Positions 26,313 through 29,139 of a stretch of 45,862 nucleotides of DNA are shown piece after piece. The translations under genes and the position numbers were made by a program. The stretch covers positions 1-45,862 of the IMG/VR virus record IMGVR_UViG_3300020419_000001. The stretch is one strand, 5' to 3'. Numbering within the stretch: position 1 is the first letter of the stretch; each line of letters begins with the position of its first letter. The stretch comes from a virus. The notes under the pieces are model-generated. The model was not told where the DNA came from. It was given only the letters and a program-made list of their open reading frames with translations, and did not search any database.

Positions 26313-26435
26313 ATGCCGATGGGAAAAGGAACTTACGGAAGTAAGAAAGGTAGACCTGCTAAGAAAATGAGCAAGGGTATGTCAAAACTACCTGCAGCTG
26401 TACGTAAAAAAATCTTAGGTAATAAGAAAAAGTAA
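26313..26435 (+). CDS. tiny basic protein 1 of a four-gene run
   Basis: This 40-residue protein (MPMGKGTYGSKKGRPAKKMS and onward) has a good ribosome binding site (AGGAG at 26301). It is very rich in Lys and Gly. Its stop shares one base with the next start. It begins a chain of four very small lysine- or arginine-rich ORFs between scaffold and oxygenase, all joined by TAATGG junctions. Confidence 0.7.
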   Translation: MPMGKGTYGSKKGRPAKKMSKGMSKLPAAVRKKILGNKKK

Positions 26436-26683
26436 TGGCTGTCAAAAAGAAAAGTGTCAGTCTTAAAATGGGTAAACATAAGTCTCGCTCAGGTGGACTG
26501 ACAGCAGCTGGTAGAAAAAAATATAATAGAGCTACTGGCTCAAATCTAAAAGCTCCACAACCCCAAGGTGGTGCTCGTAAACGCTCCTTCTGTGCTCGCA
26601 TGAAAGGAGTCAAAGGGCCAATGAAAAAGCCCAACGGTAAGCCAACCCGTAAAGCTTTGGCACTACGTAAATGGAAATGCTAA
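26435..26683 (+). CDS. small basic protein with Cys-Ala-Arg motif, tiny protein 2
   Basis: This 82-residue protein carries GLTAAGRKKYNRATGSNLKA and GGARKRSFCARMKGVKGPM, a signature I recall from a widespread phage family of unknown function (DUF6321-type). It is positively charged throughout and ends LRKWKC. Junctions on both sides share one base with neighbouring ORFs. A nucleoid, capsid-lining or DNA-binding role is possible given charge and position in the head cluster. Confidence 0.75.
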   Translation: MAVKKKSVSLKMGKHKSRSGGLTAAGRKKYNRATGSNLKAPQPQGGARKRSFCARMKGVKGPMKKPNGKPTRKALALRKWKC

Positions 26684-26733
26684 TGGCATACAAAAAGAAG
26701 TGTGGATGTAAACACGGAGGCAAAAGAAAGTAA
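26683..26733 (+). CDS. tiny basic protein 3, 16 residues
   Basis: MAYKKKCGCKHGGKRK is encoded between two one-base stop-start junctions. It has nine basic residues (eight Lys/Arg plus one His) and a CxC pair that could bind metal. It would be dismissed on length alone, but an exact fit in a coupled chain makes translation plausible. Confidence 0.5.
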   Translation: MAYKKKCGCKHGGKRK

Positions 26734-26894
26734 TGGCTAAACGTGGATTATACGCAAACATACATGCCAAGAGAAAGCGTATCAAAGCTGGCTCTGGTGA
26801 GAAGATGAGAAAGGTGGGGAGCAAAGGAGCTCCTACGGCTGCCAATTTCAAACGGTCAGCAAAAACCGCAAAACCTTATAAAAAGAAAAAGTGA
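26733..26894 (+). CDS. tiny basic protein 4 (conserved RGLYANI phage protein)
   Basis: This 53-residue protein begins MAKRGLYANIHAKRKRIKAG and continues with SGEKMRKVGSKGAPTA, a pattern I recognise from many marine phage genomes, where it is annotated as hypothetical. It is extremely basic and ends in a run of four Lys. It overlaps the GTG start of the next gene by 4 bases (GTGA). Conservation suggests a structural or DNA-condensing role; none is established to my knowledge. Confidence 0.75.
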   Translation: MAKRGLYANIHAKRKRIKAGSGEKMRKVGSKGAPTAANFKRSAKTAKPYKKKK

Positions 26895-27403
26895 AAGACG
26901 GTATCGCAAAGTACGGTAACGTTTTTAGTAAGGAGTATTGTCAAGAACTCGTTGACTACTATGAATCAAATTCAGAACAAGCTTATCAAGGAATAGGTAC
27001 AGGAGATCACTTAGGTCATAATTTATATCTAAGTGAGAGAAAATACGTAGACTTTATTTTAGAAAAAATTAAAGAAGTACTTAAAGAATATGTTAAGGAC
27101 TATACGTTTGGACAATTTTCTGGAGATGATGGTTACTTACTAAGAAAGATTTACGGTGCTACAAAGTTCCACGCTAACGGTTTGTTTGGCTCACATGATG
27201 ATGGCAAGTTAAGATCGGTTGGTCTTACTATCGGCTTGAATAATGATTATGAAGGCGGTGAGTATGAGTTTCCTAATCAAGAACTTACCACAACTTTACA
27301 ACAAGGAGAGGTTTTAATATATCCTGTATATTATACTCACCCTCATTCCGTATCTGCTCCTAAAGGATATAGATACGTTGTACACACATACCTTAACCAA
27401 TGA
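26891..27403 (+). CDS. 2OG-Fe(II) oxygenase, PKHD-hydroxylase-like, GTG start
   Basis: This 170-residue enzyme starts at a GTG overlapping the upstream stop (GTGA). It has HxD in GSHDDGKLRSVGLTIGLN, the conserved YEGGEYEF turn, GEVLIYPVYYTHPHSV with the distal His, and Arg in KGYRYVVHTYL. The arrangement follows prolyl-hydroxylase-type oxygenases. It precedes the photosynthesis genes. Substrate unknown. It is closer to the PKHD type than the other three oxygenases in this genome. Confidence 0.82.
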   Translation: MKDGIAKYGNVFSKEYCQELVDYYESNSEQAYQGIGTGDHLGHNLYLSERKYVDFILEKIKEVLKEYVKDYTFGQFSGDDGYLLRKIYGATKFHANGLFGSHDDGKLRSVGLTIGLNNDYEGGEYEFPNQELTTTLQQGEVLIYPVYYTHPHSVSAPKGYRYVVHTYLNQ

Positions 27404-27406
27404 ATA

Positions 27407-27565
27407 TTGAAAGATTTATATATCTATTTAACTTTACTAACAAACATATTTATTTGCTCTGGCGTTATACGTCATTGGAATAATATACCATCAAAACAAC
27501 ATGACACCACAGAACATTTTTCCAAACGAAACACCCCCAAGACCTATGACACATCACAACCATGA
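27407..27565 (+). CDS. possible small membrane ORF overlapping hli start
   Basis: A TTG-started 52-codon frame reads a hydrophobic segment (LYIYLTLLTNIFICSGVI) followed by a polar tail. It ends with ATGA coupled to the next ORF at 27562. It overlaps hli by 65 bases in another frame. A shorter ATG ORF (27400-27483) competes for the same space. Evidence is weak: no ribosome binding site and no recognised family. Confidence 0.22.
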   Translation: MKDLYIYLTLLTNIFICSGVIRHWNNIPSKQHDTTEHFSKRNTPKTYDTSQP

Positions 27566-27674
27566 CTACTGGCATAATGCTGAAGAGACTAATGGCAGGC
27601 TTGCCATGCTTGGCTTTGTTGCTGCTCTCGGCTCCTATATATTCACAGGACAAATCATCCCAGGAATCTTTTAA
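27501..27674 (+). CDS. hli: high-light-inducible protein (Hli, one-helix chlorophyll-binding)
   Basis: This 57-residue thylakoid protein has the conserved ExxNGRxAMLGF motif (EETNGRLAMLGFVAALGSYI, about residues 28-47), which forms the single chlorophyll-binding membrane helix, and the usual C terminus FTGQIIPGIF. Hli proteins protect photosystem II and bind chlorophyll under stress. Phage copies are thought to keep photosynthesis running during infection. It lies just upstream of psbA, the arrangement known in T7-like cyanophages. No clear ribosome binding site. Confidence 0.95.
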   Translation: MTPQNIFPNETPPRPMTHHNHDYWHNAEETNGRLAMLGFVAALGSYIFTGQIIPGIF

Positions 27675-27843
27675 TCCATACTACGACTCTCATACGAGGT
27701 GGAAGATGTCGTGTTTTGACTTCGAGCTTGCTAAGATCGGGGTCTTAACTGATGAGAGTCTGGATAGACAATCTCAACTTAATCTTATAAATTTCTTTCT
27801 CTCTAAAGTAGAGAAGGAATGTTCACACATACAACTTAATTAA
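27562..27843 (+). CDS. small secreted protein ORF nested partly inside hli
   Basis: This 93-codon ORF overlaps hli by 113 bases in the +1 frame and stops one base before psbA. Read this way, the hli helix DNA encodes a convincing signal peptide (MLKRLMAGLPCLALLLLSAPIYS-QD). The rest, outside hli, is FNPYYDSHTRWKMSCFDFEL through KVEKECSHIQ, with two Cys that could pair outside the cytoplasm. The 169 bases after hli have no other reading that fills them. A shorter start at 27706 would give 45 residues without the signal. Function unknown. Confidence 0.55.
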   Translation: MTTGIMLKRLMAGLPCLALLLLSAPIYSQDKSSQESFNPYYDSHTRWKMSCFDFELAKIGVLTDESLDRQSQLNLINFFLSKVEKECSHIQLN

Positions 27844-28923
27844 ATGGCTGCAATCTCATTACAAAGAGAAACAACCAATAAGTGGCAAGAGTTATGTGAG
27901 TGGGTAACAAGCACAGACAACCGCATTTATGTTGGTTGGTTTGGTGTGCTTATGATCCCCGCATTACTTACAGCTACAACTTGTTTTATTATCGCCTTCA
28001 TAGCTGCTCCTCCTGTTGACATAGACGGGATACGTGAACCAGTTTCTGGCTCTCTTCTCTATGGAAACAACATCATCTCAGGGGCAGTTGTCCCGTCATC
28101 AAACGCAATCGGACTCCACTTCTACCCAATCTGGGAAGCAGCAACTTTGGATGAATGGTTGTACAACGGTGGCCCATACCAACTTGTCATCTTTCACTTC
28201 CTTATCGGTGCAGCATCTTACATGGGACGCCAATGGGAACTTAGTTATAGACTAGGAATGAGACCTTGGATCTGCGTTGCTTACTCAGCTCCAGTATCAG
28301 CTGCACTAGCAGTATTCCTTGTATACCCTTTTGGACAGGGGAGCTTCAGTGATGGCATGCCTCTTGGTATTTCTGGTACTTTTAACTTCATGTTTGTATT
28401 CCAAGCAGAACACAATATCCTTATGCACCCGTTCCATATGCTCGGTGTTGCTGGGGTATTCGGTGGAGCTCTTTTCGCTGCTATGCACGGAAGTCTGGTT
28501 ACATCATCTATTCTTAAAGAAACAACAGAAGAAGTATCTCAGAACTACGGCTATAAGTTTGGTCAAGAAGACGAGACTTATAACATCGTAGCTGCACACG
28601 GTTACTTTGGTAGACTTATATTTCAATATGCTTCTTTCAATAATTCTCGTTCTTTACATTTCTTTCTTGGTGCTTGGCCCGTGGTTGGCATATGGCTCAC
28701 AAGTATGGGAATCTGCACAATGGCTTTCAATCTTAACGGCTTTAACTTTAACCAGTCAATAGTTGACACTAACGGTAAAGTTATACCTACATGGGCTGAT
28801 GTCGTTAATAGACAGAACCTTGGAATGGAAGTTATGCACGAAAGAAATGCACACAATTTCCCATTAGACCTAGCGTCTGCTGAATCTACTTCTGTAGCTC
28901 TTACAGCTCCTGCACTAGGCTAA
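27844..28923 (+). CDS. psbA: photosystem II reaction centre protein D1
   Basis: This 359-residue D1 protein is a host-derived auxiliary gene. D1 turns over fast in light and phage copies maintain photosystem II function and energy for replication. Hallmarks are [17 protein letters not shown], the quinone and heme region [40 protein letters not shown], and the C-terminal processing region ([18 protein letters not shown]). The manganese ligands near the C terminus ([16 protein letters not shown]) are present. It is full length with no intron. It starts directly after the preceding stop with no spacer. Confidence 0.98.
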
Positions 28924-28929
28924 TAGTCA

Positions 28930-29139
28930 CGTCCGTTCATCCTTCGGGACGCATGAAACCTAAGCATGGAACGGGGCTTAGGTAGATGGAGATTACCATG
29001 AAAGTAACTTTCGTTTATCGTGGCATCACTTACACAAAATTTGTTAAGTAAGTGAAACGGGGGGGAGCACCTCAGAGTCGGACTCCCCTCTAATTGGCAT
29101 TAAGCCCTGTACGCAGGACACCTTATGCCGTCATGACGG
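28930..29139 (+). ncRNA. structured element between psbA and capsid gene
   Basis: Consecutive hairpins fill this interval. CGTCC/GGACG (28930-28951) contains a UUCG tetraloop. ACCTAAGC/GCTTAGGT (28958-28983) has a 10-nt loop ATGGAACGGG. GGGGAG/CTCCCC (29062-29088) follows. A compound stem GGCAT(T)AAG/CTTATGCC (29096-29129) encloses CCTG-TACG-CAGG. The perfect palindrome CCGTCATGACGG is at 29128-29139. I recall the segment around the second hairpin as a recurring cyanophage and cyanobacterial sequence, but cannot name it. It may process or stabilise psbA or capsid mRNA. Confidence 0.5.
28998..29051 (+). CDS. 17-residue peptide ORF in psbA-capsid interval
   Basis: MKVTFVYRGITYTKFVK follows a good ribosome binding site (TGGAG, 28987-28991). 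The VYRGITY core resembles the start of the cyanobacterial and cyanophage DUF4278 family (TYRGVSY-like), which is normally longer. It may be a truncated remnant or a real micropeptide. Confidence 0.4.
   Translation: MKVTFVYRGITYTKFVK

Follow-up and report, generated by a model that had tools for sequence, protein, structure and literature searches.

In lambda-like phages, the Rz/Rz1 pair offers a close parallel to the arrangement considered here: the signal sequence of a small exported protein lies in the +1 frame of a different gene, and this protein, the lipoprotein Rz1, functions as the partner of Rz. The RI antiholin of T4 is likewise small, exported and helical; it has a disulfide, and its N-terminus serves as a signal or anchor. 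Phages also carry auxiliary metabolic genes, of which hli and psbA are textbook examples. The locus described herein, which lies between hli and psbA of a cyanophage, resembles Rz/Rz1 in that the signal (here a predicted one) of a small phage protein is encoded in the +1 frame of a different gene. It differs in that the partner is a photosynthesis gene and no lipobox is visible; by inspection, the Rz1-like pattern [LVI][ASTVI][GAS]C does not occur at the end of the leader, the cysteine contexts in the window being GLPC and KMSC. The likeness to T4 RI is one of layout only (signal or anchor, helical build and disulfide, all predicted here), and the two showed no match in sequence or fold.

The window, i.e. 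the whole stretch of DNA analysed, is a 45.9-kb virus record (IMGVR_UViG_3300020419_000001) with a T7-like cyanophage gene set. Within it, an ORF in the +1 frame of hli runs from 27562 to 27843 (93 aa counted from the first ATG), contains two more ATGs in frame (27577 and 27592), and ends in a TAA to which the ATG of psbA is directly joined (Table 1). That such an ORF exists had been proposed in the initial annotation, and it now stands on firmer ground than could be provided from the single sequence. Our favoured reading, which we hold to be probable, is that this is a genuine conserved cyanopodovirus gene that overprints the final part of hli with its start codon and export leader. Comparison with relatives lends good support to its being protein-coding, and in the literature searched this conserved overlapping gene is undescribed.

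Table 1. Features of the hli–psbA locus (window coordinates)
Feature	Position	Strand	Basis
hli (57-aa high-light-inducible protein); supplies the host frame for the overlap	27501..27674	+	phrog_178 (E 7e-21); Pfam Chloroa_b-bind at cut-off
Overlapping gene, +1 frame of hli; likely ATG 27577	27577..27843	+	phrog_6471, relatives
Predicted export leader MLKRLMAGLPCLALLLLSAPIYS, entirely within hli	27577..27645	+	n-region charge, hydrophobic run, -3/-1 site, codon selection
Non-overlapping part, conserved PY..W-x-M-[ST]-C ... KV...C domain	27675..27843	+	Alignments, helical hairpin model
Internal Met codon of W-K-M-S-C; possible secondary start	27706..27708	+	GAGGTG 27696-27701 upstream
Invariant Cys no. 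1, mature domain	27712..27714	+	Alignments
Invariant Cys no. 2, mature domain	27820..27822	+	Alignments
psbA (photosystem II D1), neighbour, no obligatory partner	27844..28923	+	Window gene set, relatives

Relatives were collected by two scans of IMG/VR. For the first, the best 80 of 452 stretches encoding relatives were kept; as its query took in the overlap, a second scan was run with the mature domain alone. Combined, these yielded 110 distinct ORFs (with the first scan again represented by its best 80 of 452). A recognised hli lies upstream of 87 of them, and at each of these 87 loci the small two-cysteine gene begins inside hli, with the frame being +1 and open in every case (87/87). The other ORFs are stand-alone, sit at contig edges, or belong to L056, L087 and L242, whose hli was missed by the first pattern and which are likewise +1 and open. 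Altogether, the +1 frame is kept in 93 of 93 cyanopodovirus sequences, whereas among 112 hli genes that lack the downstream domain it stays open past the hli stop in 2 (L115 and L155); the control set was reduced from 115 to 112 by leaving out L016, L023 and L025, which are truncated contigs that carry the gene. Conservation of the coding part and its frame in other cyanophages, suggested previously as a check, is thus apparent. Clustering the overlaps at 85 % identity gives 12 groups, each of them open; as the loci share ancestry, the open-frame counts, and the codon counts given below, are of non-independent events. In P-SSP7 the Hli helix is nearly the same and the +1 frame is closed. Both frames are therefore open beyond chance, as befits an overprinted gene pair.

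The leader part of the ORF is read from the codons for the chlorophyll-binding helix of Hli, and it is here that codon choice differs between loci with and without the gene. The identical helix AAMLGFVAALGAY is spelled GTT GCT GCT CTT GGT where the gene is present (LLLLL in the +1 frame), whereas the five control spellings have GTA or GTC, then GCA, and CTA, CTC or CTT, with four of the five bearing +1 stops. More broadly, the same helix is mostly written GTA GCA where the gene is absent and GTT GCT GCT where it is present: GTA occurs in 0 of 40 sequences with the gene versus 25 of 64 without, and GCT at the next alanine in 39 of 40 versus 25 of 64. Synonymous recoding of hli leaves the +1 frame open in 2.5–4.3 % of draws, and those recodings that stay open give a leader hydropathy of 1.48, compared to 2.88 observed; leucines are therefore preferred to a degree that avoiding stops does not by itself explain. 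GCA, which gives Gln and no stop in the +1 frame, is also avoided in hli genes that carry the second gene. Four-fold sites diverge less in the overlap than in the adjacent domain (0.278 versus 0.371), and, under one amino-acid limit, less than in control hli (0.31 versus 0.58). Judging from these comparisons, hli codons are selected such that the +1 frame stays stop-free and encodes a leucine-rich segment. Could a conserved Hli helix simply happen to read open and leucine-rich one base over? Some of the pattern does follow directly from the Hli sequence, given that ATG-CTN always yields Cys in the +1 frame and GTN GCN CTN yields certain of the leucines. Yet the frame is closed in controls whose Hli amino acids are identical, recoding leaves it open at a rate of only 2–4 %, and the part downstream belongs to a conserved family of proteins, such that pure chance is exceedingly improbable.

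With regard to that family, the C-terminal domain (residue 38 onward, numbered from 27577) matches phrog_6471 by profile (E 2e-11), a cyanophage family annotated as of unknown function, and 61 of 61 aligned members match the same profile. Searches with tblastn locate the domain between hli and psbA in the podoviruses P-GSP1 and MedDCM-OCT-S05-C849, where it is unannotated in both, and also in many cyanomyoviruses. In the cyanomyoviruses examined it is a free-standing gene of 66–67 aa with a short hydrophobic N-terminus (MLSILLALTLAHH...), found mostly in the nrd/talC neighbourhood (near nrdB and talC). Stand-alone proteins such as syn9 gp196, Syn19_186 and PHM1_179 share with the window ORF the W-x-M-[ST]-C ... 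KV...C domain preceded by a hydrophobic N-terminus; they differ in being free-standing with a short leader of their own, whereas the leader of the window ORF is read out of hli. From these comparisons, the ORF is related to the stand-alone cyanomyovirus gene, and each cyanopodovirus copy found starts inside hli. The tryptophan, both cysteines, an aspartate and KV are among the invariant positions, window ORF included (alignments A1, A3 and A4). No cellular homologues were recovered in two scans of genome contigs, which is not proof of their absence.

In a tree of the domain, two state changes are needed to account for overlapping and stand-alone copies, and the overlap-type L087 groups with the stand-alone P-HM1 with support of 100/95, on short sequences with long branches. 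This is suggestive, and only suggestive, of an overlap state that was reached or lost more than once; the fuller proposal, that the +1 reading of the chlorophyll-binding helix serves as a viral export leader and that this state has been so gained or lost, we regard as evenly balanced; the hli codons of these cyanopodoviruses would under that proposal carry a conserved second message. Three further observations concern this family. Synechococcus phage records (PV340848-PV340856, e.g. L007) hold the stand-alone gene without annotation. In L004, L005, L006, L009 and L010 a shared CGTTCATC stretch lies just 5′ of the stand-alone start codon, and may be a promoter or leader element. Finally, two loci (L262:2411-2653 and L183) have a divergent form in which WTLSC replaces WKMSC, with the start again within hli.

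Where translation begins bears on how much of the ORF is used. In the window there is no start codon in the +1 frame from the hli stop to PYYDSHTRW, hence the protein must begin within hli if these residues are to be included. It had been recognised from the outset that translation only from ATG 27706 would undo the overlapping gene: a 45-aa cytosolic protein would be made, with the open frame as a by-product. GAGGTG lies 5–10 nt ahead of this codon, is Shine–Dalgarno-like and is specific to the clade of the window, and 92 of 93 sequences have ATG at the corresponding position. PY..W is conserved upstream of it, however, and the Met of W-x-M-[ST]-C, though nearly invariant, is internal in the stand-alone myovirus homologues, from which it follows that the protein extends upstream of 27706. 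Most relatives also lack the Shine–Dalgarno, and stop avoidance and leucine choice inside hli would be left unexplained, which makes a start solely at 27706 unlikely. In a weaker form, a second, leaderless isoform from 27706 made alongside the exported one is possible.

A programmed +1 frameshift in hli, fusing the N-terminus of Hli to the downstream domain, would account for the domain always being in +1 and open from within hli. Against this, an ATG precedes the hydrophobic run within the open +1 frame in all 93 sequences with the gene (69 of 115 in controls), the +1 frame is often closed immediately 5′ of that ATG (e.g. L001), stand-alone homologues have their own starts, and a non-systematic look noticed no conserved slippery site; we therefore give frameshifting little credence. 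Under the favoured model of an overprinted gene, ribosomes would start independently at an ATG 5–22 codons ahead of the +1-frame cysteine, and would do so without a Shine–Dalgarno, which is absent at the +1 ATGs of 92 of 93 sequences. Such absence matches most genes of the window phage, where one is present at just 6 of 27 genes tested. As ATGs 10–11 codons before this cysteine are commonest among relatives, 27577 appears likelier than 27562 as the start. The 113 bases previously said to be shared with hli would thus hold for a start at 27562, whilst the likelier 27577 gives 98 nt (and 27592 gives 83 nt).

Read from 27577, the predicted product is MLKRLMAGLPCLALLLLSAPIYS|QDKSSQESFNPYYDSHTRWKMSCFDFELAKIGVLTDESLDRQSQLNLINFFLSKVEKECSHIQLN, the bar marking the predicted cleavage point. 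The signal-peptide architecture noted originally is borne out across relatives, with secretion and cleavage themselves being predictions: by simple rules, consistent with Sec export and not equivalent to SignalP, the n-region is net positive in 86 of 93 sequences, an uncharged run comes after it, and all 93 have a permissive -3/-1 site. Export of the product is moderately supported. Via Sec, the leader would bring the chain to the periplasm or the thylakoid lumen, and would be either cleaved or retained as an anchor. The structure model contains a confident helical hairpin (residues 46–57 and 64–75, pLDDT above 90) flanked by the two invariant cysteines, with the N-terminal half being of low confidence. 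We infer a disulfide between these cysteines, and our best guess for the mature domain of ~60 aa is a helical hairpin held by that disulfide and located in the periplasm or the thylakoid lumen, perhaps acting as an infection-stage envelope or thylakoid-lumen accessory factor. In the PDB, a fold search yielded nothing beyond generic hairpins, the top hit being 1zdc, a disulfide-stabilised mini Z domain, at Z 4.8, and so the fold points to no function; in BFVD, rank 1 was a 66-aa S-CAM1 protein. HdeA-like, spanin and lipoprotein readings were considered and set aside, with no notable Pfam/NCBIfam match and no PDB sequence match.

As to the surroundings, the gene follows hli with no psbA after it in the podoviruses L056, L087, L197 and L262, which rules out an obligatory link to psbA; on these comparisons the constant partner is hli, and psbA is incidental. 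The coupled chain of three genes once envisaged finds no support here, as the gap from stop to psbA is 0–14 nt, psbA lacks a Shine–Dalgarno and is sometimes absent. Elsewhere in the neighbourhood, a Glutamine-II riboswitch aptamer (RF01704, 47.1 bits, E 1.6e-9) occupies 28931-28982, after psbA and ahead of the next large gene. Directly 5′ of hli in the window lies a predicted 2OG-Fe(II) oxygenase (26891-27403); in P-SSP7 and P-GSP1 that place is taken by the head assembly gene. Two small basic ORFs (26435-26683 and 26733-26894) recur near the locus in the cyanopodoviruses L008, L087 and L262.

No description of the ORF was found in the literature searched, and it goes unmentioned in those parts of two papers on cyanopodovirus genomes that treat hli, psbA and P-GSP1 (PMC4646655 and PMC9860041). 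A conserved gene of exported type has seemingly been overlooked in annotation between hli and psbA, even in the cultured isolate P-GSP1, and a culturable system is on offer for testing whether an overprinted leader is expressed and exported and what it does. The gene serves also as a warning: in phage hli, patterns at synonymous sites reflect a second gene. If the favoured reading is true, a transmembrane helix doubles, in another frame, as an export signal; one DNA stretch in many ocean cyanophages is apparently selected to encode two unrelated proteins.
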